Assembly (NCBI GenBank): GCA_037482215.1
Contig: CP148074.1
Coordinates: 1,612,001 to 1,676,000, forward strand
Source of the DNA: Pseudomonas mendocina
GTDB taxonomy: Bacteria > Pseudomonadota > Gammaproteobacteria > Pseudomonadales > Pseudomonadaceae
Reading direction: 5' to 3'
DNA: 64,000 nt
The notes beneath the pieces are model-generated. The model searched no databases. It was not told the origin of the DNA and was given only the letters and a program-made list of their open reading frames with translations. Both the position numbers and the translations under genes were made by a program. Shown here in pieces: positions 46,848 through 62,631 of the stretch (positions within the stretch are counted from its first letter, which is position 1; each line of letters starts with the position of its first letter).

Positions 46848-48512
46848 ATGGTTATGCGCATTTCTTCGCTGCAGGCCTTCAATAACGGAGTAGGTGGCCT
46901 GGGCCGCAACTACTCCAATGTGATCCGCACGCAAGAACAGATCAGCACTGGCAACCGTATTCTGACGCCGGCAGATGATCCGGTCGCCTCCGTGCGTTTG
47001 ATGCAGCTTGAGCAGCAGGCTTCGGTGCTGGGGCAGTACAAGTCCAACCTGACGGCTGCCAAAAACAGCCTGTCGCAGGAAGAGGCGACGCTCAATTCGG
47101 TGAACACCGTTATGCAACGTATCCGTGAGCTGGCAGTACAGGCCGGTGGCGGTGCATTGTCTGCCGAAGACCGCAACTCCCTGGCTCAGGAGCTGGCAGA
47201 GCGTGAGAACGAGCTGCTCAACCTGATGAACACACGTAACGCCCGTGGTGAATACCTGTTCAGCGGTAACTTAGGTAAGACAGAGCCTTTCACCCGCAAC
47301 CCTGATGGCACCTACTCCTACCACGGTGACGAAGGCCAGCGCAGTTTGCAGGTGGCTACTTCAAGTACCGTGGCGATTAACGATAACGGCAAGGCGCTGT
47401 TTCAGTCGGTGACTAACGCCAACCGTATTCAAAGTGATAACGGTGTGGATAACCCTAATTTGCCGATGCCACCGCTGCAGTCCACTTCATTCGCCCCCAA
47501 GCCGGCTAATGAGCAGCGGCTGTTCATGTCACCGGGGCTAGTGCAGGACAACAAGGTGTACAACAGCCAGTTCCGTGCGGGTGAGCCCTACTCGATGGTG
47601 ATGGTCAGCGGTACAGAGTTCGCCATTTACGATAAAGACGGCAGCGATGTGACCTCGGATATCACCGGCGGCGGCATAATTGACCCGACTGCCAGCAGCG
47701 GTAATGTCATTAACTTCCGCGGCATGCGTTTTCAGCTCGATGTGGTCTTTAAAGAGGGCGATAACCCTAAGGACGCGGATAACCTCCTGGCCGACGCCTC
47801 AACCCCTGGCACGCCGGGCACCCATAGCTTCACCTTGTCTTCGACACCGACTGCATTTGCCAGCACCCGTGCTGCGGGCAACGCGTCTTCTGCACGCCTG
47901 GTTCCTGAAGGCATTACCAATCAGGCCGTGTTCAACAGCCAGTTCCCCACTTCTGGGGTGCTGATGCGCTTCAATGGCACCGATTTTGATGTTTTTGCCC
48001 AGCCCTATAAGGCAGGAAATCCTGTGTTGCAGACGGCTCCGCTGATCCCCGGTCCGCCTGATACGGTCGAGGTGCTTGGGGTGTCGATGCAGGTCAACGA
48101 CGTTCTCAGTGCGGATGACCAGTTCACTTTAATGCCGCAGTTTCAGGAGCAGCGCAGTATCCTCGACACCGTCAGCCGACTGCGCCAAGCGCTTGAATCA
48201 ACTCCAGACTCACCTAATGGCAATCTGGCCATTCGCGATGAAGTGGCCATTGCCCTGACCAACATTGATAACGGTATTAGCAATGTGCTCGGCGTGCAGA
48301 CGCAGATCGGTGCACGGTTGAATCTGATCGAAACCACGCAAACCGACAACGAGGATGTCACCCTCGTCAACAAGGGAGTGCAGGCAGAGCTGCGAGAGTT
48401 GGATTATGCCGAGGCATTGTCGCGCCTGTCCTTCCAGACCATCGTTCTGGAGGCAGCGCAGCAGAGCTACGTGAAGATCGCCAGCCTTAACTTGTTCAAC
48501 CAGTTGCGCTGA
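46848..48512 (+). CDS. flgL: Flagellar hook-filament junction protein FlgL, long form
   Basis: A 554-residue HAP3. The N-terminal axial helix includes NYSNVIRTQEQISTGNRILT and PADDPVASVRLMQLEQQ, and the C-terminal helix has LRELDYAEALSRLSFQTIVLE. The length is about 100 residues above the P. aeruginosa protein I remember (about 440). The excess lies in the central surface domain (about residues 190-400), which is Pro/Asp/Ser-rich. End of the flgF operon. Confidence 0.93.
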   Translation: MVMRISSLQAFNNGVGGLGRNYSNVIRTQEQISTGNRILTPADDPVASVRLMQLEQQASVLGQYKSNLTAAKNSLSQEEATLNSVNTVMQRIRELAVQAGGGALSAEDRNSLAQELAERENELLNLMNTRNARGEYLFSGNLGKTEPFTRNPDGTYSYHGDEGQRSLQVATSSTVAINDNGKALFQSVTNANRIQSDNGVDNPNLPMPPLQSTSFAPKPANEQRLFMSPGLVQDNKVYNSQFRAGEPYSMVMVSGTEFAIYDKDGSDVTSDITGGGIIDPTASSGNVINFRGMRFQLDVVFKEGDNPKDADNLLADASTPGTPGTHSFTLSSTPTAFASTRAAGNASSARLVPEGITNQAVFNSQFPTSGVLMRFNGTDFDVFAQPYKAGNPVLQTAPLIPGPPDTVEVLGVSMQVNDVLSADDQFTLMPQFQEQRSILDTVSRLRQALESTPDSPNGNLAIRDEVAIALTNIDNGISNVLGVQTQIGARLNLIETTQTDNEDVTLVNKGVQAELRELDYAEALSRLSFQTIVLEAAQQSYVKIASLNLFNQLR

Positions 48513-48551: not shown

Positions 48552-50381
48552 TTAGTGCGGTCTGACCAGATGCTTGAGCTGCTCTTCCAGGTTCTTCACC
48601 AGTCGCGGAGTATCAAACAACACACCGTTTTCCTTCACGTCTTTAAGCTGCTCTCTTAGTGCTTGCAGCTTTCCAGTTGCGTTGGCAAGGGCGACGGCTT
48701 GCTCTTCATAACTAGTTAGATCGTAGGTGATGAGCTCAGGCATACCTGCTGCTGTGAGCAGCGCACCGGCCATACGTGAAGCAAAGGTCTTACCCGTGCG
48801 GGTCAGCACTGGCAGGCCCATCCACAGGGCATCGTTGGCTGTAGTTCCAGCGTTGAACGGATAGGTGTCGAGGAACAGGTCGGCCACACCAAAACGCGCC
48901 AGGTAATCTTCAGGCGACACACGTGGCGCGAAAATCAGCCGACTCATATCAATACCAGCGCCTTGTGCATGGGCGATTAGATTGGCTTGCGCCCAGGGGT
49001 TGTCTGCCAGTAGCCAGAGCACAGAGTTCGGAGTGCGCTGCAAAATACGCATCCAGCTGTCAAACATCTCCTCGGTGAATTTGTAGTTGTTGTTGAATGA
49101 GCAGAACACCACTGCATCTTCAGGCAGGCCGCAGCTGCTGCGGGTTGGAATGGCGGAATGCTGGCGCTGTCGGTCGCTGGACTGGTAGACGTCTGGCAGG
49201 TACAGCGGCTTTTCCGAGTAGTACTGGGCTTGGTCTTCCGGGATCAGGAATTTGTCTGCAATCACGTAGTCGATCGATGGCAGGCCTGTTGTGGCCGGGA
49301 GGCCGAGATAGGTGATTTGCAGCGGGGCTGGGCGTAGGGCAATCATGGCTGGGCGAGCACCCAAGGTTTGCCCTTGCAAGTCGATCAGAATATCAATTTC
49401 ATGCTGGCGGATCAGCTGTGCAGCGGCTTCATCGCTCAGGTGATGAATGCGTTCAAAATGATCCATGGCCTTAATCACGCGCTGGCGGATTTGCGAGCCA
49501 TCCTCGCGACTCCAATCAAACCCATACACTTCAAACTGATCACGGTCATGCAGCTCGAACAATTCAACTGTTAGCTTGGCCACCGGGTGCAAGCAGAAGT
49601 CTGACGAGCAGTAACCGATGCGCAGTTTTTTGTGCTTGTATGGTTTGTCCGGAGATAGTTTGTGCGGCACGGAGGCCATTTTGTTGCGCACATAATTCTG
49701 GGCGGCAATCAGCTGCTGCTGCGGGTCTTCGGAGATGCTGATCATTGCCATGGCCGAGGTGTACTCGCGCTGAATCGCTTCCGGAAGTCCGGGCAATGGT
49801 TCGTAAACCGGCCACACGCACTGTTTGGCGCGCAGGAAGACCCAGTGGTGGATCACATCCGGTTGATTGGGCTCAATACGCAGGCTTTTGGTGAGCGAGT
49901 GCAAGGCATCTGCAAGCCGGCCTTGTTCTTCATAATGACGGCCCAAGTTGTTCACTGCCATTAACAGGAACTGGCGTTGTTCAGGGTCGCTGGCGTCGGC
50001 ATGGGTTTCAATCCATTGCCACTGGGCGGTAGCAATGTCGAACTGGCCCAGGCGTTCATGCACCAAGCCCAGGTTAAAGCGAGGTTGCAGAAAATCAGGT
50101 GCCAAGCGTATGGCCCGGCTATAGACCTCACCTGCTCCGGCGTAATCCCCTTCGTTGAACAGGATCACGCCCAGGTTGAACAGGGCAAGGTGGTCGTGGG
50201 TGGTGCGGTTACGTTTGAGCCAGGTCTGGTACAGAACAGCAGCCAGCGGCGCGTTTTGTTCGCTGAGTTGGTTACAGAGCTCTAACAGTTGGAGTAAACC
50301 CAACTGTCCGTTCCAGGCTTGAAGCGTGGCCTGAGCGAAGTCTGGTTGTGTTGTCTGAGGCAGGGCGTTCTTCTTGGCCAT
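48552..50381 (-). CDS. TPR-containing O-GlcNAc-transferase-like glycosyltransferase (GT41)
   Basis: A 609-residue predicted cytoplasmic protein. TPR-like helices cover about residues 60-190 (FNLGVILFNEGDYAGAGEVY, RFNLGLVHERLGQFDIATAQ). The catalytic region from about 255 resembles OGT/SPINDLY proteins: IGYCSSDFCLHPVAKLTVE, DLQGQTLGARPAMIALRPAP, VFCSFNNNYKFTEEMFDSWM and FLDTYPFNAGTTANDALWMG. GT41 enzymes attach a sugar to Ser/Thr of proteins. It follows the giant Ser/Thr-rich repeat gene on the same strand by 77 bp and lies in the flagellin-glycosylation position. Targets could be flagellin, FlgK/FlgL or the repeat protein; sequence alone does not decide. Confidence 0.88.
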   Translation of the reverse strand: MAKKNALPQTTQPDFAQATLQAWNGQLGLLQLLELCNQLSEQNAPLAAVLYQTWLKRNRTTHDHLALFNLGVILFNEGDYAGAGEVYSRAIRLAPDFLQPRFNLGLVHERLGQFDIATAQWQWIETHADASDPEQRQFLLMAVNNLGRHYEEQGRLADALHSLTKSLRIEPNQPDVIHHWVFLRAKQCVWPVYEPLPGLPEAIQREYTSAMAMISISEDPQQQLIAAQNYVRNKMASVPHKLSPDKPYKHKKLRIGYCSSDFCLHPVAKLTVELFELHDRDQFEVYGFDWSREDGSQIRQRVIKAMDHFERIHHLSDEAAAQLIRQHEIDILIDLQGQTLGARPAMIALRPAPLQITYLGLPATTGLPSIDYVIADKFLIPEDQAQYYSEKPLYLPDVYQSSDRQRQHSAIPTRSSCGLPEDAVVFCSFNNNYKFTEEMFDSWMRILQRTPNSVLWLLADNPWAQANLIAHAQGAGIDMSRLIFAPRVSPEDYLARFGVADLFLDTYPFNAGTTANDALWMGLPVLTRTGKTFASRMAGALLTAAGMPELITYDLTSYEEQAVALANATGKLQALREQLKDVKENGVLFDTPRLVKNLEEQLKHLVRPH

Positions 50382-50413
50382 TTATGTCCAGTTCATCAGA
50401 AAACGGGCGATAA

Positions 50414-50445
50414 CAGGCTGGATGGCAAAATTGCCGTCCAGCCTG
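50414..50445 (-). repeat. Strong hairpin between the repeat-protein gene and the GT41 gene
   Basis: A 13-bp stem with one G-T wobble (50414-50426 with 50433-50445) and a 6-nt loop. There is no U-tract, so some readthrough into the GT41 gene is likely, at reduced level. Confidence 0.6.
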
Positions 50446-50458
50446 CCGCTCAACTCAA

Positions 50459-53400
50459 TCAGGAGATGCCGAGGGTATTCAGATCGTCCGCGGACAGAAT
50501 CTCCTTGAGGAAGTCGGTTTGCGCAGTGGTCAGTGCACTGAGGTCCACTTTCTCGAGTTTGGCGACTCCCAAGTGCTCAAGTTGATCATTGGTGAACTGA
50601 CTGACTTGGCTTGCGTTGAGCGCACCTAGCGCAGCGTCATTCATGCCCTGAAGCTGAGTTTTGCTCAGCTCTTTGATGTTGTCAGACGTGATTGCCTTGA
50701 TGCTGGCGGATGCCAATCCGTTGATCTGGGCTGCCGTCAGGGTGGCTGTCTGGCTGGCGGACATGGCACCCACCTGGCCTGCGCTGATGTGGGCCATTTG
50801 CGCGGGGGTCAGCGCTTCGATCTGGCTGTTCAGCAGAGCACCGAAGCTGGCGTTGGAGATCTTCTCCAACTGGCCCTGTGTCAGCACTTCTACTTGGTCG
50901 GTTGTCAGTGCGCGCAGTTGTACGTCGGTCAGCTTGGCGATCTGATCTGCACTGAGCCCCTTGTTAGCGTCGGTAACGCCGCTGACATCAAGGGCTGCGA
51001 TCTGATCAACAGTGAGCTGATCAACCCGATCACCCAACTGGCGCAGCAACGACAGATTGCCTCCTGTAGACGCTGTCAGTTCAGTCAACAGCTGCGTATC
51101 ATCCAGGGCTTTGAGTTGCTCGTCACTCAAACCAGCAACTTGGTTGGTGCTCAGTGCGCCAATGCTGGTGGCGGAGAGGCCGCTGATTTGGGTCACAGAC
51201 AGGTCTTTGATGTCGTCGCCGGTAAGTTTTTTCACAATGGCAGCAACTTGCGAGTCGTCCAGCGCTTGCACTTGCTCAGAACTCAGGCCTTTGACCTGGT
51301 TATAGGTCAGCTCGCCCAATTTGGTAGCGGATAGCCCGCTGATCTGCCCTGAGGTGAAGTGGCTGATATCAGCTGCACCCAGATCGGCAATGGCAGCCAT
51401 TTGGGTCGAATCCATCGCGCGCAACTGGTTCTGGGTGAACTTGGACACCTGATCGTTGGTCAGGCTGATCAGCTGATCCGTATTCAGGCTCTTAACTTGA
51501 GTAGTGGTGAGCTGGCTGATCTGGTCGGTTGTCAGGTTATTCAGGATGGCATTCAGGCGAGTGCTATCCAGCGCACGAATTTGGGTGTTGGTCAGATCTT
51601 TCACCTGAGCAGAAGTCAGCCCCTGCATTTTCGACGCGCTAAGGGCGTTCAGCTGAGTCGTGTTGAGGGCTTTCAGATCAATGCCATCAATGCTGGCAAC
51701 CTGGCCAGCGCTGAGGCCAGCTAACTGGCCGGTGCTCATGACACGCATCTGGTCGCTGCTGAGGTCTTTGATCTGGTTGTACGACATCAGCGCCAGCTGA
51801 GTGGTTTGCAGTGCGCGAACCTGGCTGGTAGTCAGCGCCGAGGTATCCAGTTCGGCGACTTGGGTGTCAGTCAGCTCTTTGATCTGCTGATCTTTCAGTC
51901 TGGCTTGGACGTTAGCGATGTCTTCTGACTCAAGGGCTTTGACCTGGTCACTGGTCAGTGCGCGGATCTGCTGAGTCGTCAACGCGTTGACCTGAGCACT
52001 GGTCATGTTACGCACGTGCTCTGTGCTGAGGTTGCTGATTTGAGCGGTGGTCAGCGCTTTGACTGAAGTAGTGCTCAATGCTTTCAGAGCTTCAGCAGAC
52101 AGGCTGTTGAGCTGGTTGGTTTTGAGCGCACGCAGTTGGTTGGTTTCCATGGCCCCAATCTGAGTGGCGGACATGGCTGCAACTTGCTCGTCGCTTAATG
52201 AGCCGACTTGAGCAGTGGTCAGGGCTTTGATTTGATCAGTGTCCAGACTTTGAACTTGCTCAATGGTCAGTTGTGCAACCTGACTGGTTTGCAGTTTGGT
52301 GCCCAAGGCTTTGATGTCTTGAGTTTCCAGTGCCTGGATCTGACTGCTATTCAGCGCTTTGACTGCCGCTGCGGTCAGTTTTGCAGCCTGATCATCTTCT
52401 AAACTGGTGATTTGGTCAGCGGTCAATGCTGCCACTTGCTCTGTACGCAGGGCTGCAATTGCAGCCGTGCTCAAGGCTTTGATCTGCTCACCGCTGAGTA
52501 CGCTGATGCCGTTGGTGCCGGTACCCAGTGCACGCACCTGTGCAGTGGTCATGTTGGCCAGATGGTCGGTGCTTAATGCTTTGAGATGGTCACCACTGAG
52601 TGCTGCAACTTGTGCCGTTGTCAGTGACTTGAACTGCGTTGTGGTCAACGCCTGGACCTGCTCTGTGGTCAGGTGTTGGATTTGACCGGAAGTGAGGGCC
52701 GTTGAGAGCTTGGCGATTGTTTCGGCATTCATCAACTTCAGCTGGCCGCTTGTGAGGCTTTGTGCGGCTTTGCTGTTAAGTTTTTCAGCTTGGGTTGTGG
52801 TCAGCGCCTGGACTTGGTTCGTGGTCAGTGCCTGAATCTGGTCGGTACGCAGGGCCGCAATGGCGGACGTCGAGAGCGAAGCAATCTGTTCGTTGCTCAG
52901 TGTTTGGAGCGAGCTGTTACCAATTGCACGAATTTGCGCCGAGGTCAGAGATGCTGTCTGATCGGTGGTCAGGCTCTGCAATTGAGTATTACTGAGGCTG
53001 GCCACTTGAGCAGTGGTAAGCGCCATGATTCCGTTGGCACTGAGCGCAGCAATCTGGTTAGATTCAAGTGCCTTAATGCCGTCATCATCATGGCCTAATG
53101 CGCGCACTTGGGCGGTAGTCAGGGCACCCAGTTGATCATCAGTCAGGGCCTTGAGCTGGTTCGAACCCAGCGCCGTAATCTGGGCGTTGGTCATGGCGCG
53201 GATTGCACCGGTGCTCAGGGAGCTGATCTGATTGGGTTCAAGTGCCTGGATGCGGTCGTTCTTCAGGGCTTTAATCTGGGCTGGCAGCAATCCTGAGAGC
53301 TGCTCATCTGACAAAGCTTTGATCTGGCCGGCGGTCAAGGCTGCAACCTGTTGGGTCGACATGGTCTGCAGGCTGTCTACGGACAGGGCCTTGACTTGGT

Positions 53401-54262
53401 CGGTGGTGAATGCACCCACCTGTGCAGCGGTCAGGAATCGGGTCTGGTTAGGAGACAGGCTACGTATCTGACTGTCGTCCAGTGCCTGAATCTGGTTGGT
53501 CTTAAGTGCTCTGACTTGGGTCCCGGTCAGGGCACCCAATTGTTCAGAGGTCATAACTTGCAGCTGATCTGTGGTCAGCGTGGAGACCTGCTTGGCGCTC
53601 AGGCTGGCAATCTGCGCAGTGCCCAGGATGTCGATGGCATCCAGTTGCGCAGGCTTGAGGGCTTGGATCTGCGCAGAGGTCAACGAGCCGATTTGCTCTT
53701 CGGACATGGAGCGCAGCTGTTCAACAGTCAGTTGACCGATCTGGCGGGTCGAGAGCTGCTGAATCTGATCAGTGCTCAGCACATTAACGGCATCCAGTTG
53801 AGCCGCAGTCAGGGCCTGGACCTGGGTTTTGGTCAAGGCCGAGTCATCGGCATCTTCTTCCAGCGTACGCAACTGGTCTGCACTCAGCGCGGCCAACTGC
53901 TGGGCAGTGAGCGCCTGTACCTTGGTCGGGTCATCGTTGATGGCATCAATTTGCGCATAGGTCAGGCTGGCAATCTGCTTGGTATCCAGGCTGCGCAGCT
54001 GAGTGGTGGTGAAGTTGCTGATTTGGCCTGAGGTCAGGCCGTATTCGATCTGATAATCAGAGAAGGCTTTGATCTGCGATGCACTGAGGTTAACGATAAC
54101 GCCTTCGTCAATCGCCTTTACCTGTTCAGCGGAAAACATCTGAATCTGTTGGGCAGACAGTGTCTTGATTGCACCAGAGCCTGCACTTCGAATCTGCTCT
54201 GTGCTCAGGCTAACGATCTGATCAAGCGTGTAGGACTTAAAGCTCGTAATTGTTGTGCTCAT
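50459..54262 (-). CDS. Giant Ser/Thr-rich octapeptide-repeat protein, function unknown
   Basis: A 1267-residue protein made almost wholly of degenerate 8-residue repeats, about 150 in all, of pattern L-[ST]-[ST]-x-Q-[IV]-x-A (examples LTTQQIRA, LTSDQVKA, LSAEALKA). Phase shifts of one to a few residues occur, often at Asp/Gly-rich points. I see no Cys or Trp and very few Pro. Non-repeat ends are short: about 20 residues at the N-terminus (MSTTITSFKSYT) and about 25 at the C-terminus, which ends SADDLNTLGIS. There is no signal peptide or membrane segment. I take the ATG at 54262, with AGAGGG 9 nt upstream; an in-frame start at 54382 has no such site. [ST]-x-x-[QED] resembles a helix N-cap, so a compact helical solenoid is possible. 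I do not recognise a characterised family. Adjacent glycosyltransferases suggest a glycosylated structural protein (inference). Confidence 0.9.
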   Translation of the reverse strand: MSTTITSFKSYTLDQIVSLSTEQIRSAGSGAIKTLSAQQIQMFSAEQVKAIDEGVIVNLSASQIKAFSDYQIEYGLTSGQISNFTTTQLRSLDTKQIASLTYAQIDAINDDPTKVQALTAQQLAALSADQLRTLEEDADDSALTKTQVQALTAAQLDAVNVLSTDQIQQLSTRQIGQLTVEQLRSMSEEQIGSLTSAQIQALKPAQLDAIDILGTAQIASLSAKQVSTLTTDQLQVMTSEQLGALTGTQVRALKTNQIQALDDSQIRSLSPNQTRFLTAAQVGAFTTDQVKALSVDSLQTMSTQQVAALTAGQIKALSDEQLSGLLPAQIKALKNDRIQALEPNQISSLSTGAIRAMTNAQITALGSNQLKALTDDQLGALTTAQVRALGHDDDGIKALESNQIAALSANGIMALTTAQVASLSNTQLQSLTTDQTASLTSAQIRAIGNSSLQTLSNEQIASLSTSAIAALRTDQIQALTTNQVQALTTTQAEKLNSKAAQSLTSGQLKLMNAETIAKLSTALTSGQIQHLTTEQVQALTTTQFKSLTTAQVAALSGDHLKALSTDHLANMTTAQVRALGTGTNGISVLSGEQIKALSTAAIAALRTEQVAALTADQITSLEDDQAAKLTAAAVKALNSSQIQALETQDIKALGTKLQTSQVAQLTIEQVQSLDTDQIKALTTAQVGSLSDEQVAAMSATQIGAMETNQLRALKTNQLNSLSAEALKALSTTSVKALTTAQISNLSTEHVRNMTSAQVNALTTQQIRALTSDQVKALESEDIANVQARLKDQQIKELTDTQVAELDTSALTTSQVRALQTTQLALMSYNQIKDLSSDQMRVMSTGQLAGLSAGQVASIDGIDLKALNTTQLNALSASKMQGLTSAQVKDLTNTQIRALDSTRLNAILNNLTTDQISQLTTTQVKSLNTDQLISLTNDQVSKFTQNQLRAMDSTQMAAIADLGAADISHFTSGQISGLSATKLGELTYNQVKGLSSEQVQALDDSQVAAIVKKLTGDDIKDLSVTQISGLSATSIGALSTNQVAGLSDEQLKALDDTQLLTELTASTGGNLSLLRQLGDRVDQLTVDQIAALDVSGVTDANKGLSADQIAKLTDVQLRALTTDQVEVLTQGQLEKISNASFGALLNSQIEALTPAQMAHISAGQVGAMSASQTATLTAAQINGLASASIKAITSDNIKELSKTQLQGMNDAALGALNASQVSQFTNDQLEHLGVAKLEKVDLSALTTAQTDFLKEILSADDLNTLGIS
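50500..54230 (-). repeat. Degenerate 24-bp tandem repeats
   Basis: The octapeptide periodicity appears in DNA as 24-bp units (recurring TTGATCTG or TTGAGC-type blocks on the plus strand). Units are diverged at synonymous and non-synonymous positions, which suggests old expansion rather than recent slippage. Confidence 0.85.
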
Positions 54263-54745
54263 TGTGTGCTGCCCTCTGATTATCAGATGCACAAGCCCGT
54301 TCTTGTTTTTCAGGCTTATTAATTGTTGGCCCAAGCTATTTTGGGGGAGAGTCGGCTGGGAAATCGGCAGATTGTCGAACAACTTTAACGTAAAAAATAA
54401 AATAGTGGCACTGAGCTATCTTTTGGCAGGAGTGTCATTCTGTAAGCGGGATGTCTACAGCAAGGTTTGCAGCGAGGCTGTTCGGGTTGATTTTTTTTTA
54501 ACAGCATCTGGCCTGATTCGATGGGCGCAGTGGCGCTTTTCGAGTGCCCTGTCGTTGCTCTTAGGGCGACGTGCGAACACTAAGCGGGTTGGCCAAGGGA
54601 GTTGGCGGGATATTTGCAGAGAACCACCCAAACTGTGCTTAGCGTCAGAACACTGACATTTGCACCCTGACCAAGACGTTCGAGCGAGTGCTCGCGGGCT
54701 TGGTTTATCTAGCTAGCACGCATGGGATTGAAGGGGAGTGGTGGC
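54263..54745. other. Divergent control region of the glycosylation locus
   Basis: About 480 bp between the divergent repeat-protein and methyltransferase genes. It is more AT-rich than its flanks near 54380-54500. A plus-strand 133-codon frame (54255-54656) looks non-coding. A sigma-54 candidate is listed separately; I see no matching element pointing towards the repeat gene. Confidence 0.5.
54603..54618 (+). promoter_or_regulatory. Sigma-54-like promoter for the glycosylation operon
   Basis: TGGCGG-N5-TTGCA, with GG (54604-54605) and GC (54616-54617) separated by exactly 10 bp, about 130 bp before the methyltransferase ATG. It matches the flagellar RpoN promoters except at the base after TGGC. 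Confidence 0.65.
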
Positions 54746-55498
54746 ATGAGCCAAGAAGCTGTCGCGGGTCAGCGCAATTACCTTGAGGTACTGAACATAC
54801 TGCATGAGCAGTTGTTACCGGACCTTTATATGGAAGTGGGCGTACGCAACGCCGGGAGCCTGAGTCTGGCCAAAGGCTGCGCAGTGGGAATCGACCCGCT
54901 TAAGCAGTTCACTAAAGAGCTTCCTGCCACAACGCTGTTCTATGAGATGACCAGCGATGACTTTTTTGCTGCTGCAAAAAACAGCAACATCGAAGAGAAG
55001 GTGGATCTGGCATTTATTGATGGCATGCACCTGTTCGAATACGCACTGCGTGACTTCATTAATATTGAGGCGTATGCGACTCCTTGGACTGTGGTGGTCC
55101 TGGATGACATGTGCCCCAACCACCCGGCTCAGGCTGCTCGGGATCGCAAGACCACAGTGTGGACTGGCGATGTGTGGAAACTGCGCGACTGCCTCAAGCG
55201 CTACCGCCCGGATCTGGTTCAGATTTTATTGGATACATGGCCCAGCGGCTTGCTGCTGATTATCGGCCTGGACCCTTCCAATACCGCGCTGAGCGATAAC
55301 TATGAAACCATCCTCAAGGAGTACGTCCATAACGACCTGGCTGTACCTGAAGGGGTGCTGCGTAGGGAGGGGGCGATGGCTCCAAATAATGAACTGATTG
55401 TCTCCACCTGCGAGTTGATTAAAACCGTCAGGACCTCTCACGAGCCACAAGAACAGATGCATAAACTGCGCAAGCTGCTGGCGTGGAGAGGGCTATGA
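54746..55498 (+). CDS. Class I SAM-dependent methyltransferase
   Basis: A 250-residue protein of the Methyltransf_24 type. The SAM-binding strand-loop is YMEVGVRNAGSLSLA, with VGIDPL as the acidic second strand. DLAFIDGMHLFEYALRDF and TVVVLDDMCP complete the family pattern. The ATG at 54746 has GGGGAG upstream; the ATG at 54722 does not. Its stop overlaps the next gene (ATGA). Probably methylates a sugar or glycan in the flagellin-glycosylation pathway; direct protein methylation is an alternative. Confidence 0.82.
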   Translation: MSQEAVAGQRNYLEVLNILHEQLLPDLYMEVGVRNAGSLSLAKGCAVGIDPLKQFTKELPATTLFYEMTSDDFFAAAKNSNIEEKVDLAFIDGMHLFEYALRDFINIEAYATPWTVVVLDDMCPNHPAQAARDRKTTVWTGDVWKLRDCLKRYRPDLVQILLDTWPSGLLLIIGLDPSNTALSDNYETILKEYVHNDLAVPEGVLRREGAMAPNNELIVSTCELIKTVRTSHEPQEQMHKLRKLLAWRGL

Positions 55499-56385
55499 AA
55501 AAACTCTCTGTCATTGTTGTGGCGTTCAATATGGCGCGTGAACTTCCACGCACCGTGCAGTCCCTCTCGCCGCAGCTACAGCAGGGCATCAGTGCCGATG
55601 ATTATGAAATCATCGTGGTGGATAACGGCTCGGCAGAGCCCGTCCCGCAGAGCGTGCTGAGTGCTTGGGGCGCGGATGTGCGTTGTCTGCAGGTGGAAAA
55701 GCCGAACAAATCCCCTGTCGCGGCGGTAAACCTGGGCTTGGCTGAGGCCCGTGGCGAAGTGTGTGGAGTGATCGTAGACGGCGCACGCATGGTGACGCCG
55801 GGGCTGCTGGCCCGTGTGCTCAAAGCCAGGAACCTGCGCGAAGAGCCGGTGATTTCAACCGTAGGTTTCCATCTGGGGCCAGTCCATCAGTCGCGTAGTG
55901 TGGCGATGGGCTATGAGCAAAAGTTTGAGGACTTCCTGCTGGCATCCATCGACTGGGCCAAAGACCCGTATCGGCTGTTTGTTGTGTCCTGTTACGCCGG
56001 CTCGTCTCCGCGTGGCTGGTTCGGACCCACCAGCGAAAGCAATGCACTGTTCATGCTTAAGCAAACCTGGGAGCAGTTGGGCGGTTATGACCCGGCGTTT
56101 GAGCTGCCGGGGGGCGGCCTGTGCAACTTGGATATATTCCGCCGCGCGCTGGAACTACTGCCGCAGAACCTGATTGTGTTGTTGGGAGAAGGGACCTTCC
56201 ATCAATTCCATGGCGGGACTTCATCCAATGATGAAGGCTCGAAGTGGGAGCTTTTTCACAGGGAGTACCAGAGCATCCGGGGGAAGAATTGGGAAATTCC
56301 TCATGTGCCTGTTGAGTATTTCGGAGCGGTACATCCTTACTCGCATGATCATCTGGCGTTATCGATCAATGCGCTGAAGGGCTGA
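55495..56385 (+). CDS. GT2-family glycosyltransferase
   Basis: A 296-residue GT-A-fold transferase. The N-terminus is LSVIVVAFNMARELPRTVQS, followed by YEIIVVDNGSAEPV and a VIVDGARMVTPG block in the DxD position. No membrane helices, so it acts in the cytoplasm, as expected for flagellin glycosylation before export. Overlaps the methyltransferase stop. Confidence 0.86.
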   Translation: MKKLSVIVVAFNMARELPRTVQSLSPQLQQGISADDYEIIVVDNGSAEPVPQSVLSAWGADVRCLQVEKPNKSPVAAVNLGLAEARGEVCGVIVDGARMVTPGLLARVLKARNLREEPVISTVGFHLGPVHQSRSVAMGYEQKFEDFLLASIDWAKDPYRLFVVSCYAGSSPRGWFGPTSESNALFMLKQTWEQLGGYDPAFELPGGGLCNLDIFRRALELLPQNLIVLLGEGTFHQFHGGTSSNDEGSKWELFHREYQSIRGKNWEIPHVPVEYFGAVHPYSHDHLALSINALKG

Positions 56386-56453: not shown

Positions 56454-59400
56454 GTGAGCACTCGGTATAAGTTTGACGCTGAACACAATCTCTACACGCG
56501 CCCTGAGGCGAATCGCTTTAACTACAGTGACGGCGATGCGGTGGAGAACTTCCTCTATAACGTCATCAAGAACGCTGCGGATGTCTCCACAGGCTCTGAA
56601 GAGCTGCAGCAGCACATCAGCAACTGGCCGACGCTGTATCACCTGAGTCCGATGCGCGCCAACCTGTTCCGCCCGATTGCTGCCAGCCTGCAGGGTAAAA
56701 AGGTGCTGGAGCTGGGTTCAGGCTGCGGTGCAATCAGTCGCTTCCTGGGGGAGTCCGGGTGCGAGCTCACGTGTGTTGAAGGTAGCCTTCGTCGTGCCGG
56801 TATTACGGCAGCCCGTTGCCGCGACCTGAACAACGTCAAGGTCTACAACGACAACTTCCAGAACTTTGAAACCGACGAGCGTTTTGATGTCGTGACGCTG
56901 ATCGGGGTGCTTGAGTACAGCCGCAAGTTTATTGGCGGTGAGGATCCAGTTGGCGCAGCGCTGGCCTTGGCGCGATCCTTCCTTAAGCCGGACGGGGTTT
57001 TGCTGGTCGCGATTGAGAACAAGCTCGGTCTCAAATACTGGGCCGGTGCTTACGAAGATCACCAGGGCGTGCCGTTCTATGGTATCGAAAGCCTGTATGG
57101 CGACGGCGAAGCGGTGACGTTCGGACGTCGCGATTTGGCCCGCATTCTTAAGCAGGCCGATTTCTCTGAGCTTGAGTTTTTCTATCCGTACCCAGATTAC
57201 AAACTGCCTTCGATGGTGCTCACCGAGCGTGCCCTCGAGCAGCGCGATGACGTACTGGTCAACCTGCTTTCCGGCGTATTTGCGCCGGTGCAAGGGGCGA
57301 ACTATCAGCGCACGTTCTCCGAAGGCGCGGCTCAGCGCGGCCTGGTTGAAAACGGCCTGGTCGGTGACCTGGCAAACTCTTTCTTTATCGTTGCCAAGAA
57401 AGGCAGCGGTAACTGGACTGGTGACCCGGACGCTGTTGCGTTCACCTACTCTCAGGGCCGTCGTCGCCAGCTGAGTAAAGAAGTCAGCATCCATCGTGCG
57501 GGCACTGCACTGGAAGTGCGCCGCCAACTGCTTGATAGCCACGCCGCACTGCCAGCCTGGATGCAGTTCAGTCCGGTTGAGCCGCTGCATCAGGGTGAGT
57601 TGCTTTTCAACTCGCTGTTGACCCTGATGAACCGTGAAGGCTGGGGGGTGAGCGCTCTGGCCGAGTGGCTGCGTCCGCTGTCCCGCGTGCTGTTTAGTGC
57701 AGCTGTTGATAAGGGCGGCCGCCTTGTGCTTCCTGGACAATATTTTGATGCCACGCCGTTCAATCTGGTGCTTGATGCTGAAGGCAACGGCACGCTGTTT
57801 GATCTGGAGTGGCAACTTTGGCCGGAGATTGATGTGGCCTTGCCACTGTTCCGAGGCATGTTCCACAGTCTGGCGCGGATTGGCAGTGTCGCCCAGCCGA
57901 TGGCCGATACTCCGCTGCATCTTGCCGAGCTGTCGTCGCGTGTGGTCAGCCAGCTAACTGGTAAACCGGTCGATACCGATGCATACCTGGCCCAGGAAGT
58001 TGAGTTCCAGCGTCAGGTTCAGTTGTTCCCCGGCAGCGTGGAGGGCCTCAAAGCGTCCATGTTGGATGTGCGTTTGTCGCCGACCCGCTTGCGTCAGGCT
58101 TTGCAACGCTATCTGGATCAGGGGGCACATTCCCAGACTGTCAGTTCTACCGCGCCCCAAACAACGGGTTCTGAAATCGACATTACCCGCACTTGGCTGG
58201 CCAACCGCTTGCCTACCGAGCAGGAGAACCAACTGATTGCCGGTCACCTTGAGCAGCATCAGGGTGGGCCGCTGCTGGGTGTGGTCGTGGTCGATCTGGA
58301 AGGCGACAGTGCCAAGCTGATGACAACCATCAAGAGTCTTGGTTTGGACCGCTGCCTCTACGCCACGCTGAAAATAATCGCACTGACGCCTGCGAACGTG
58401 CCGCAGACCAGTCCCACGGACAAGCTGCACTTCGTCAACATTGATCCGACTGACTATGTGGCGCAGCTAAATAGCGTCATCAGTGAGAGCCAGGTTGAGT
58501 GGTTTATGCTCGCCCGTGCCGGCGAGGAGTTCACCTCAAGCGGTCTGATGATGGCTGCATTGGAGCTGATCCGGCAGCCGCAATGCCGCGCCTTGTACGG
58601 TGATGAAATGCATCGCCTGGCCAATGACGAACTCGGCGCAGCCCTGCGTCCTGGTTTCAACCTGGATTACCTGCTGAGCATGCCGGCAGTGATGGCGCAT
58701 CACTGGCTGGTTAAACGCGAGCTGTTTGTGGAGCTAGGCGGTTATTCCGTTGATCAGCCTGAGGCCATGGAGTTCGACTTGATCCTGCGACTGATTGAGC
58801 AGGACGGCCTGAACGGTCTGGGCCATGTCGCCGAGCCGCTTCTGATCACCGATGCGCCGCAGCTGCAGGACAACCCGCAAGAACAGGCTACGCTGCTGCG
58901 TCACCTGAGCCAGCGCGGTTATGCGGCTGAGCTGAAGGAGCATTTGCCGGGCCGCTACCGCATTGATTACCAACATGCTAGCAAGCCGCTGGTATCGATC
59001 ATCATTCCGACCAAAGACCAACTGCCGATGGTGCAGCGTTGTGTCGAGTCGCTACTGGAGTTGACGCGTTACCAGAATTACGAAGTCATCATCGTCGACA
59101 ACAACAGCGAAACCCCGGAGGCCCGCGAGTGGCTGCAAGGGATTATTGGCCTTAATGAGCCCAAGTTACGTGTCTTGCGCTATCCACATCCGTTCAACTA
59201 CTCGGCCATTAACAACATGGCTGCCCGTGAAGCACGTGGCGAGTATCTGGTTCTGCTGAACAACGACACAGCCATCATCGACGGGGGCTGGCTGGACGAG
59301 CTACTCAACCACGCTCAGCGTCCGGAAGTGGGTATTGTCGGGGCCAAGCTGCTGTACCCGGACGGTCGCATTCAGCACGCCGGGGTAGTCTTGGGCCTAC

Positions 59401-60845
59401 GCGGGCCAGCAGACCATCCGTTTATTGGCTCGCCGGCGGATGCGCCGGGTTACATGCAGCGCATGCAAGTGGTGCAGAACTACACTGCTGTGACTGCTGC
59501 TTGCCTGATGATTCGCCGTGAAGTTTACGAGCAGGTCGGTGGCCTAGACGAGGAGGTCTTCAAGGTTTCCTACAACGATGTGGATTTGTGTCTGAAGTCC
59601 CGTCAGGCTGGCTATCTGACTGTGTGGACACCATTTGCCCAGCTGTTACACGAAGGCAGTGTCAGCCAGAACAGTGTGGATACTGCTGCCGCTGAGGCCA
59701 AACTCAAGCGTTTTGTGTCTGAGCAGGATGCGATGTATGAGCGCTGGGTGTCTGTCCTCGCCCGCGATCCGGCTTACAACGCAAACCTTTCACTCAACGG
59801 CGTGGGTTTTGAAATCGAGCCTGATTTCAAACTGACCTGGCGTCCGCTGAGCTGGCGCCCGCGGCCAGTGGTGCTGGCTCATCCGGCTGACCCGCATGGT
59901 TGCGGTAACTACCGGATCATCCTGCCCTTTAAGGCACAGCAGAAGGCGGGCCTTATCGATGGCATGCTTTCTCCGGGCTTGTTGCACGTAGCTGATCTGG
60001 AGCGCTATGACCCGGATGTTATTGTGTTGCAGCGTCAGATTGGTGACGAGCGGCTGGAGGCCATGCGCCGTATCCAGAAGTTCTCGCGTGCGTTCAAGGT
60101 TTATGAGCTGGATGACTACTTGCCTAACCTGCCACTGAAAAACGTACACCGCGAGCAAATGCCCAAAGATGTATTGAAGTCCCTGCGTAAAGGCCTGAGC
60201 TATGTGGATCGTTTTGTGGTGTCAACCGAGCGTCTGGCTGAGGCCTTTACTGGTCTGCACGGTGAAATTCAGGTGGTGGAAAACCGCTTGGCCCCAGAAT
60301 GGTGGGAAGGCTTGAAGAGCAAGCGTCGACAAGGGCGCAAGCCTCGCGTGGGCTGGGCTGGCGGCGCCAGCCACACCGGCGATCTGGAGTTGATTGCGGA
60401 TGTGGTCAAAGCATTGGCGGATGAAGTGGAGTGGGTATTCCTAGGGATGTGCCCGGCCAAATTGCGGCCCTATATTCATGAATTCTATCCGGGTGTCGAT
60501 ATAGAGAAATATCCAGCTGCATTGGCCAGTTTAAACCTGGACTTGGCCTTAGCCCCTGTGGAGCAGAATCTGTTCAACGAATGCAAGAGCAATCTGCGCC
60601 TGCTTGAGTACGGTGTCTGCGGCTATCCCGTAATTTGCAGCGACTTGGCGTGCTACCAGGGAGACTTGCCAGTTACCCGGGTGAAAAACCGATTCAAAGA
60701 CTGGGTCGATGCCATACGTGCACATATCAGTGATTTGGATGCAGCGGCCAAGATGGGAGATGAGTTGCAGGTGTCAGTACGCAGTGACTGGATGCTCGAC
60801 GAAAACGCAGCCAGAAACTGGCTGCAGGCATGGTCTGGTCAGTAA
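56454..60845 (+). CDS. Fused methyltransferase / glycosyltransferase, FgtA-like
   Basis: A 1463-residue multidomain protein. Residues about 80-240 are a class I methyltransferase (KVLELGSGCGAISRFLGESG). About 615-840 is a degenerate GT2-like region ending in FVELGGYS. About 843-1080 is a canonical GT2 domain (PLVSIIIPTKDQLPMVQRCV, EVIIVDNNSETPEA, LVLLNNDTAIIDGGWLDELL). About 1136-1440 is a GT-B-like domain with GWAGGASHTGDLELI and FNECKSNLRLLEYGVCGYPV. The start is a GTG with GGAAGG 7 nt upstream. It directly precedes fliC, the position of fgtA in P. aeruginosa, so building a flagellin glycan is the likely role. Which sugars it handles is unknown. Confidence 0.88.
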   Translation: MSTRYKFDAEHNLYTRPEANRFNYSDGDAVENFLYNVIKNAADVSTGSEELQQHISNWPTLYHLSPMRANLFRPIAASLQGKKVLELGSGCGAISRFLGESGCELTCVEGSLRRAGITAARCRDLNNVKVYNDNFQNFETDERFDVVTLIGVLEYSRKFIGGEDPVGAALALARSFLKPDGVLLVAIENKLGLKYWAGAYEDHQGVPFYGIESLYGDGEAVTFGRRDLARILKQADFSELEFFYPYPDYKLPSMVLTERALEQRDDVLVNLLSGVFAPVQGANYQRTFSEGAAQRGLVENGLVGDLANSFFIVAKKGSGNWTGDPDAVAFTYSQGRRRQLSKEVSIHRAGTALEVRRQLLDSHAALPAWMQFSPVEPLHQGELLFNSLLTLMNREGWGVSALAEWLRPLSRVLFSAAVDKGGRLVLPGQYFDATPFNLVLDAEGNGTLFDLEWQLWPEIDVALPLFRGMFHSLARIGSVAQPMADTPLHLAELSSRVVSQLTGKPVDTDAYLAQEVEFQRQVQLFPGSVEGLKASMLDVRLSPTRLRQALQRYLDQGAHSQTVSSTAPQTTGSEIDITRTWLANRLPTEQENQLIAGHLEQHQGGPLLGVVVVDLEGDSAKLMTTIKSLGLDRCLYATLKIIALTPANVPQTSPTDKLHFVNIDPTDYVAQLNSVISESQVEWFMLARAGEEFTSSGLMMAALELIRQPQCRALYGDEMHRLANDELGAALRPGFNLDYLLSMPAVMAHHWLVKRELFVELGGYSVDQPEAMEFDLILRLIEQDGLNGLGHVAEPLLITDAPQLQDNPQEQATLLRHLSQRGYAAELKEHLPGRYRIDYQHASKPLVSIIIPTKDQLPMVQRCVESLLELTRYQNYEVIIVDNNSETPEAREWLQGIIGLNEPKLRVLRYPHPFNYSAINNMAAREARGEYLVLLNNDTAIIDGGWLDELLNHAQRPEVGIVGAKLLYPDGRIQHAGVVLGLRGPADHPFIGSPADAPGYMQRMQVVQNYTAVTAACLMIRREVYEQVGGLDEEVFKVSYNDVDLCLKSRQAGYLTVWTPFAQLLHEGSVSQNSVDTAAAEAKLKRFVSEQDAMYERWVSVLARDPAYNANLSLNGVGFEIEPDFKLTWRPLSWRPRPVVLAHPADPHGCGNYRIILPFKAQQKAGLIDGMLSPGLLHVADLERYDPDVIVLQRQIGDERLEAMRRIQKFSRAFKVYELDDYLPNLPLKNVHREQMPKDVLKSLRKGLSYVDRFVVSTERLAEAFTGLHGEIQVVENRLAPEWWEGLKSKRRQGRKPRVGWAGGASHTGDLELIADVVKALADEVEWVFLGMCPAKLRPYIHEFYPGVDIEKYPAALASLNLDLALAPVEQNLFNECKSNLRLLEYGVCGYPVICSDLACYQGDLPVTRVKNRFKDWVDAIRAHISDLDAAAKMGDELQVSVRSDWMLDENAARNWLQAWSGQ

Positions 60846-60990: not shown

Positions 60991-61017
60991 TAAAGATTTT
61001 TAGGGGTAGGCCGATAA
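60991..61017 (+). promoter_or_regulatory. FliA (sigma-28) promoter of fliC
   Basis: TAAAGATT, 11-bp spacer, GCCGATAA: the flagellar late-gene consensus with one mismatch, about 97 bp before the fliC ATG. Confidence 0.92.
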
Positions 61018-61113: not shown

Positions 61114-62631
61114 ATGGCCCTTACTGTCAACACAAACGTAGCCTCGCTGAACACTCAGCGTAACCTGAACACCTCGTCCAAGGGTCTGGATACTTCGCTG
61201 CAGCGCCTGTCGACTGGTTTCCGCATCAACAGCGCAAAAGATGACGCTGCTGGTCTGCAGATTTCCAACCGACTGACCAGCCAGATCAGCGGTTTGAATG
61301 TTGCAACCCGTAACTCGAACGACGGTATCTCTCTGGCCCAGACTGCTGAAGGTGCACTGCAGCAGTCCACTGGTATCCTGCAGCGTATGCGAGACCTGGC
61401 CCTGCAATCGGCTAACGGTTCCAACGGTGCGAGTGAGCGTGCTGCTCTGCAAGGTGAGGTGGCTCAGCTGCAACAGGAGCTGAACCGTATCGCTGAGACC
61501 ACCAGTTTCGGTGGTCGCAAAATTCTTGACGGCTCGTTCGGTTCCCAGAGCTTCCAAGTGGGTGCCAACGCCTACGAAACCATCAGTGTTTCCATCGGTT
61601 CTGCAGCAACTGACCGTATCGGTGTAAACCGCTTTACCTCTTCCCAAGGGGCGGGTACCGGTTATGCGCCGACTGTACAAGGTAGCGGCTTTAGCGCCAC
61701 TTCTGGCAGTGCGTTCGCATCCAGTGGTTTCAGCATCAACTCCAAGCTGTCCCAGGGTGATGTGGCTATTACTTACGCGACCAGCGGGGCTGCAAGTGAA
61801 GTAGCTGCTGCCGTAAACGCGAAAAGCGATGAGACTGGTGTAACTGCGAGTGCGCGTACAGTCGCCCGCTTGGGTGGTATTTCTGCTGGCGCATCGGGCG
61901 CTGGAAATACTGTCTCCTTCAAGCTTTACGGCGCTGACAGCAAAACTACTGCAGATGAGGGTGCTACTGTTTCTGCTGTGATCAAGGATCCAGCTGATCT
62001 GGGTGCTCTGGCTGATGCTATCAACAAAGAAACTGGCAAAACTGGTATCTCGGCCATCTCCAAAGGCGGAGAGATTGAACTGGTTAGCTCCCGCGGTGAT
62101 GCGATCGTGATCGGCGACTTCGCGGCAACTTCCGGTACTGCAACCATGACTGCTTATGACTTCTCCGGTGAGACAGCCATGAGCTCTGGCACTATCTCCG
62201 CAGGTTCGGGCATGCGTGCTGATGGTCAAATCCGCTTTGAAGCAGCTGATGCCTTCTCACTGACTGGCATGGGCTCTGGGATGGCAACTAGCAGTGGTGC
62301 AGTATTCAGTGAGCTGGACACTGTTCGCGAGATCGATATCAGTACTTCGACTGGCGCACAGGATGCTCTTGGTATCATCAACGGCGCGATCGCTAACATC
62401 GACTCGCAGCGTGCTCAACTGGGTGCTGTACAGAACCGCTTTGAAAACACCATCTCCAACCTGCAGAATATCTCCGAGAACGCCTCTGCTGCTCGCAGCC
62501 GGATTCGGGATACTGACTTCGCAGCGGAGACTTCGGAACTGACCAAAAATCAGATCCTGCAACAGGCTGGTACCGCTATCTTGGCTCAGGCCAACCAGCT
62601 TCCACAGGCAGTGCTCAGCCTCTTGGGCTAA
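61114..62631 (+). CDS. fliC: Flagellin FliC
   Basis: A 505-residue filament subunit. Conserved D0/D1 regions are at the N-terminus ([40 protein letters not shown]) and C-terminus ([40 protein letters not shown]). The central 170-410 is the variable, Ser/Thr/Gly-rich surface domain and is the likely glycan acceptor. I use the ATG at 61114 with GGAGG upstream; the extension from 61087 is leader. Regulated by FliA. Confidence 0.97.

Follow-up and report, generated by a model that had tools for sequence, protein, structure and literature searches.

The 64,000-nucleotide stretch of the Pseudomonas mendocina genome analysed here (assembly GCA_037482215.1, contig CP148074.1, positions 1,612,001 to 1,676,000 of the forward strand), called the window below, carries a gene for a giant protein made of eight-residue repeats (octads) next to a gene for a GT41 glycosyltransferase with tetratricopeptide repeats (TPR). 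Arrays of such octads and GT41 enzymes of this clade are paired beyond chance, the pairing crosses genera in differing surroundings, and the proportion of Ser/Thr at the third octad position follows the presence of the enzyme. From these sequence comparisons it appears probable that the enzyme is dedicated to its neighbour, O-glycosylating it in the cytoplasm, likely at position 3, and that this neighbour is an alpha-solenoid surface protein belonging to the flagellar regulon. The two genes are as follows.

50459..54262, minus strand: ALTTAQ octad protein gene (ATG 54262, stop 50459; 1267 amino acids (aa), ~158 octads, predicted nearly all-helical solenoid)
48552..50381, minus strand: TPR + GT41 glycosyltransferase gene (609 aa, relative of XcOGT and human OGT)

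An earlier note, made from the letters of the window alone, had proposed that the octad protein is the GT41 substrate. Its description of a 1267-residue octad protein without Cys or Trp, whose gene ends 77 bp before the start of a GT41 gene on the same strand, between flgL and fliC, agrees with the open reading frame (ORF), the lag identities and the Pfam matches. The octad period is real, since self-identity peaks at lags of 8 (0.269), 16 (0.225) and 24 residues (0.212), while lags out of step with the octad give 0.05-0.10. The note's count of about 150 octads is also sound: a strict motif finds 91, and 1267/8 gives ~158. Its remark that its author knew no characterised family of this design needs correcting in part. 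The octads match Pfam PF20080, the ALTTAQ repeat (E 2e-172, 558.9 bits against a curated cut-off of 26.4, 27 stretches), and the family is thus already catalogued, but no role for it was found in the literature searched, where text matches to 'PF20080' look like string accidents. The note had also named a strong match to a known family with another role as a point that would speak against its proposal; the match exists, but that literature gave no such role.

In the source genome (4.76 Mb, one contig) the window array is the sole location of PF20080, and the window enzyme is the one GT41 match at E<=1e-20. The enzyme matches Pfam Glyco_transf_41 (E 3.9e-84, 283.3 bits against a cut-off of 25) as well as TPR, and its closest solved relatives are XcOGT and human OGT (2jlb, E 4e-87); against the HMW1C-type family NCBIfam NF049992 it scores 34 bits, where the cut-off is 1000. 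Residues H265 and K434 are invariant in 10/10 aligned GT41 enzymes and align to a His and a Lys of XcOGT. We take them to be the counterparts of the catalytic H498 and K842 of human OGT.

Pairing of octad arrays with GT41 enzymes

Within the genus, PF20080 was found in 16/298 genomes and a close GT41 (E<1e-190; 54-58% identity outside its own genome) in 14/298, and in all 14 the enzyme lies beside an ALTTAQ array. This is the co-occurrence that the earlier note had suggested looking for (Fisher 3e-22, with kinship not corrected for). The close clade is found in none of the 282 genus genomes without ALTTAQ (0/282), six of which have distant GT41s only (30-36% identity). In the two further genomes with arrays, one array adjoins a 41%-identical GT41 fused to a methyltransferase (G128) and in the other the contig ends inside the array (G123).

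Beyond the genus, a public scan covering one genome per species (84,980 species), with peptide patterns taken from the alignment of array-linked GT41 enzymes, gave 114 relatives, and the best 80 loci were analysed (43-95% identity). They come from Pseudomonas, relatives in the Burkholderiales and Rhodocyclaceae, Methylomonas, Geobacteraceae, Syntrophobacteraceae, Holophagaceae and Alphaproteobacteria; several loci of the genus survey belong to genomes that recur here among L104-L121. An octad array is present in 65/80 and lies within 600 bp of the GT41 gene in 56, namely directly upstream on the same strand in 53, downstream in 1 and divergent in 2, with the other 9 further off. Among the 15 loci without an array, 6 have less than 1.8 kb of upstream sequence, and for 14 of them PF20080 occurs elsewhere in the genome, the exception being a 2.4-Mb metagenome-assembled genome (MAG). 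Therefore 79/80 GT41 loci lie in genomes with ALTTAQ arrays, while base rates of PF20080, the centre genome included, are 5/274 (class), 28/398 (phylum) and 6/289 (class of G749). Two features of this survey tell against giving the counts their full face value: because its patterns came from array-linked enzymes, the scan samples that clade, and the adjacency count includes related Pseudomonas.

The surroundings of the pair differ. On plasmid pA of Cereibacter sphaeroides 2.4.1 (L305 6952-11637), a 1561-aa ALTTAQ array named 'ICE nucleation protein' is divergent from the GT41 gene; downstream of the latter come an ABC/HlyD pair and a methyltransferase. On a plasmid of P. asturiensis (L304 6482-9580) three ORFs share the broken-up octad gene, the first of them named 'heme utilization protein', with ABC, HlyD and TolC genes alongside. 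As a separate observation, family f206 of the phylum (G604, G659, G648) has up to 27 GT41 matches per genome, and several of its genomes contain more than one ALTTAQ array, some of them in frames of more than 5,000 aa.

Ser/Thr at the third octad position

Position counts were made with a motif that leaves octad positions 2-4 free; they exclude array-less loci as well as L224 (4 octads) and L250 (2 octads), and the group of 65 arrays in GT41 loci is defined by an array in the same locus, not by strict adjacency (56). Of the 32 genomes whose GT41 status was determined for these counts, 22 have a GT41, including G123 with a distant match only. Ser/Thr at position 2 has similar medians in arrays of GT41 loci, of GT41-positive genomes and of GT41-less genomes (0.81, 0.75 and 0.78). 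Position 3, with the groups in the same order, has medians of 0.76 (range 0.31-1.00, 65 arrays), 0.74 (0.05-1.00, 22 arrays) and 0.10 (0-0.28, 8 arrays). After collapsing by genus, or else by record, by which some families are counted more than once, 41 taxa compared with 9 GT41-less arrays give 0.74 vs 0.11 at position 3 (p=3.4e-6), 0.80 vs 0.78 at position 2, which serves as a built-in control (p=0.99), and p=0.011 at position 4; from seven added stretches (L297-L303), only L298 entered this test and the others are single values. The same contrast is seen within one genome, G1071, where position 3 is 0.96 Ser/Thr in the array beside the GT41 and 0.29 in the other array. The earlier note had held that repeat genes occurring widely without a GT41 neighbour would speak against a substrate. 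ALTTAQ genomes without GT41 do exist, but their arrays are low in position-3 Ser/Thr.

Predicted structures give the two positions different places. AlphaFold models of residues 1-600 and 668-1267 (mean predicted local distance difference test scores of 91.6 and 89.6) consist of nearly all short helices, about one per octad. All 43 octads counted have positions 3-6 in a helix and positions 1 and 2 outside it. Position 2 is therefore the helix N-cap, and the helix begins with position 3; the Leu at position 1 is likely buried. Since the candidate acceptor varies with the presence of the enzyme and the neighbouring structural hydroxyl does not, both a substrate and its acceptor position can be predicted from sequence. 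Among PDB sequences the repeat protein matches 9zem, HeliScrew4, best (E 8.5e-16). It resembles the window protein in having LTPEQIAA-type octads, but it is only 120 aa long, and where the two align its position 3 is mostly Pro; a literature search found neither its origin nor a publication on it.

Not all arrays follow this pattern, and the following weigh against the proposed modification at position 3. Window-form arrays, a subgroup defined below, are low (window 0.49, Comamonas 0.38, RUBRI1 0.52, Propionivibrio 0.53, Accumulibacter 0.54), and an Oxalobacteraceae array beside a GT41 reaches only 0.31. G474 (0.05) and G973 (0.31) have distant GT41s only. In G899 the values are 0.33 beside GT41 and 0.21 without, and position 4 is higher (0.83 and 0.58); in most f206 arrays position 4 is likewise as Ser/Thr-rich as position 3 or richer. 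In G1093 the array not beside GT41 has 0.61 and the one beside it 0.57. The GT41-less comparison comprises 9 arrays, mostly short and partly related. With so few members, which may form a lineage of their own, part of the signal could come from the descent of a subfamily. The window-form values do lie above every GT41-less array (maximum 0.29). The proposal of the earlier note gains indirect support from the cross-genus pairing and from position 3, and support for it is weakest for the window form itself.

If descent of one repeat subfamily were the whole cause of the position-3 Ser/Thr, the octad protein could be an unmodified cytoplasmic scaffold. This would fit with the window form, in which no secretion signal or type I domain was recognised (a point that also counts against a surface protein), and with the frequent Pro at position 3 of GT41-less arrays. 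We regard it as very unlikely in view of the contrast within G1071, of relatives with adjacent type I genes and a C-terminal domain, and of proteins elsewhere that join ALTTAQ arrays to domains of the RTX, Ig, filamentous-haemagglutinin and G8 types (among the matches listed, 120 of 312, in a survey that scored the 7997 candidates with most words in common). RTX nonapeptides (PF00353) had no match in the window protein at E<=0.001.

Proposed flagellar control and export

Two predicted promoters of the FliA (sigma-28) type stand out in the window when it is scored against the sigma-28 consensus:

54361..54387, minus strand: FliA-type promoter of the octad gene, TAAAGTTG-N11-GCCGATTT, 98 nt before the ATG
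60991..61017, plus strand: FliA-type promoter of fliC, the positive control of the promoter scan (25/26)

The octad-gene site (23/26) is the second in the window after that of fliC, and the next site scores 20. The promoter survey covered 65 arrays with their start inside the locus, and found a site of at least 20 upstream of the array in 21/26 GT41-clade loci, in 12/12 genus loci (genomes partly shared) and in 0/27 other arrays; starts were picked by rule and some are wrong (e.g. L083), and the negative group is therefore rough. Between the window and L082 the promoter boxes are largely kept while the flanks diverge, and the boxes are largely kept in L083 too. Most arrays of the type I form described below (L038, L041, L046-L049, L052-L054) share TAA[TG]GTTT-N11-GTCGCTAA ~85 nt before the ATG, with a weaker fit (20/26) and variable spacer letters; judged by its letters, this is a FliA-like variant promoter. 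FliA itself is over cut-off in 39/44 GT41-locus genomes (44 of the 80 loci) vs 4/11 GT41-less ALTTAQ genomes, counts that, given the different lineages, are no more than consistent with such control. According to PMC8036289, FliA of Pseudomonas drives class IV genes such as fliC. As a predicted element, the FliA-type promoter links the majority of close-clade arrays with the flagellar regulon; at odds with this are the 5/26 related loci without such a site and L222 among the 27 others, whose GT41 is 58-59% identical and whose promoter scores only 18.

The pair is flanked on both sides by genes that run the other way, on the plus strand:

46848..48512, plus strand: flgL (flgK and flgL lie on one side of the pair)
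54722..55498, plus strand: Methyltransf_24 protein (Pfam), divergent from the octad gene, with a possible role in glycan modification
55483..56385, plus strand: GT2 glycosyltransferase (Pfam)
56454..60845, plus strand: methyltransferase + GT2 protein, 1463 aa (Pfam)
61114..62631, plus strand: fliC flagellin (ATG 61114)

In other lineages, the flanks of L101, L143, L091 and L098, where FkbM methyltransferase, GT2 and TPR-GT9-like genes adjoin the pair, resemble the window's methyltransferase and GT2 genes. In the earlier note the pair was a feature of a flagellin-glycosylation island. That description is not supported for the clade: FliC, FlgK or FlgL was found in only 18/80 GT41 loci, and 18 loci, all Pseudomonas, lie beside a type I exporter. 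The flagellar setting survives in the promoter, which most close-clade arrays have.

A location between flgL and fliC, among GT2 and methyltransferase genes, is also what would be expected, and here counts against the substrate proposal, if the GT41 were a flagellin O-glycosyltransferase and the octad protein a neighbour with a role of its own. There is a precedent in FlmG of Caulobacter, a flagellin O-glycosyltransferase acting in the cytoplasm (PMC7591256, available text), which has a TPR N-terminus and a GT-B domain, the layout of the window enzyme, and a flagellar role, with fliC nearby in the window. It differs in acting on flagellins, and no octad partner is named in the text available of PMC7591256. 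(Of 14 control genomes, that of Caulobacter vibrioides, from the genus of the FlmG paper, alone has PF20080.) The low position-3 Ser/Thr of the window form points the same way, as do the 18 loci with flagellar genes, 6 of which have no array in the fetched stretch (L090, L136, L148, L149, L153, L155). All 6, however, are in genomes with ALTTAQ arrays, the GT41 follows an array also where no flagellar gene was found, the clade is missing from the ALTTAQ-less genus genomes, and the position-3 signal resides in the array. We consider a flagellin enzyme unlikely. An enzyme that modifies both flagellin and the octad protein, with shared FliA control serving both, would agree with the shared promoter type of fliC and the octad gene and with the genome's having one GT41 match only. 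Many loci, however, have an intact pair near which no flagellin was found, and such a double role seems quite unlikely.

If the GT41 is instead dedicated to the octad protein, FliA would transcribe the octad gene together with flagellin, and the enzyme would add a sugar in the cytoplasm at position-3 Ser/Thr, its TPR superhelix holding the octad chain during addition along it, perhaps before folding. Extension or capping of the glycan may fall to the products of the GT2 and methyltransferase genes nearby. Once glycosylated, the solenoid would be exported and serve contact or attachment at the cell surface; for many Pseudomonas relatives the expected route is the adjacent type I system, acting on a C-terminal domain.

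Two forms of the protein can be told apart. The window form (6 proteins including the window's, 1227-1267 aa from the ATG) is colinear with two Pseudomonas kin (L082, L083) at 52-99% identity in two halves, and with Comamonas, Propionivibrio and Proteobacteria MAG proteins at 39-54%; L084, aligned in the C-terminal half, is longer, at least 1479 aa (start off contig). The type I form is about 1,600 to 5,500 aa long. A C-terminal domain '...GDVQLLVATDVQTWIH' or a variant of it ends 13 of the 15 genus arrays with their end on the contig, the window and G128 being without. ABC, HlyD and TolC genes were identified by Pfam beside the pair in L041 and L047; an ABC sharing 60% identity or more with the type I ABC of L041 occurs in 18/80 loci, those in Pseudomonas mentioned above, and some ABC exporter aligned over at least 450 aa in 31/80. 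Beside the window pair there are no ABC, HlyD or TolC genes, the flanks being flagellar or glycosylation genes. Two observations count against export by a type I system: the one close type I ABC of the source genome (55% identity) is ~570 kb away, beside a different 449-aa protein, and some arrays with the C-terminal domain (L104, L111) lack a close type I ABC within the stretch fetched. At that distant site (L252, G000:C1:1080000-1099999) a type I ABC, membrane fusion protein and outer membrane factor adjoin the 449-aa ORF, which is possibly their substrate.

For the window form, our leading guess is export via the flagellar export apparatus. It could then be a new external flagellar part, a FliA-controlled, densely O-glycosylated rod of ~158 octads that coats or extends the filament and bears the GT41 sugar at the first helical residue, an idea that we put forward tentatively and hold to be doubtful.

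Related systems and the intergenic hairpin

We know of no dedicated octad substrate for XcOGT or human OGT, and for most OGT-like GT41 enzymes of bacteria we are aware of no identified substrate. The serine-rich repeat glycoproteins of Gram-positive bacteria are giant Ser/Thr-rich surface proteins with a dedicated cytoplasmic O-glycosyltransferase (GtfA/GtfB, with SecA2); they differ in their enzymes, their export and their repeat. HMW1C of Haemophilus is a GT41 dedicated to one giant exoprotein, which modifies HMW1 in the cytoplasm before export (PMC3983070). HMW1C has an AAD domain instead of TPR and acts on Asn, and HMW1 leaves through a two-partner pore. The window system is unlike it in having TPR, an octad alpha-solenoid, type I or other export and a FliA-type promoter, and it shows no excess of N-X-S/T sequons (13 vs 11.0 in shuffled sequence). 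For giant type I adhesins under flagellar control, there is FrhA of Vibrio cholerae, a flagellar-regulated RTX adhesin (PMC10865825); it has an RTX-adhesin build with Ig-like domains, and the available text names no GT41 partner. The kind of system, a dedicated glycosyltransferase with a giant repeat exoprotein, is known, and what would be new is the substrate fold, the enzyme clade and the regulon. If correct, this would give PF20080 a function, explain misleading public names such as the 'heme utilization protein' and 'ICE nucleation protein' mentioned above, and extend the flagellar regulon by a glycoprotein module.

A minor feature lies in the gap between the two genes:

50414..50445, minus strand: hairpin in the 77-bp octad-GT41 gap (z -3.3; 1/200 shuffles equally stable)

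L082 has retained the stem, in which several changes are paired, and a T run comes after it. The hairpin may set the output of the GT41 below that of the octad protein.

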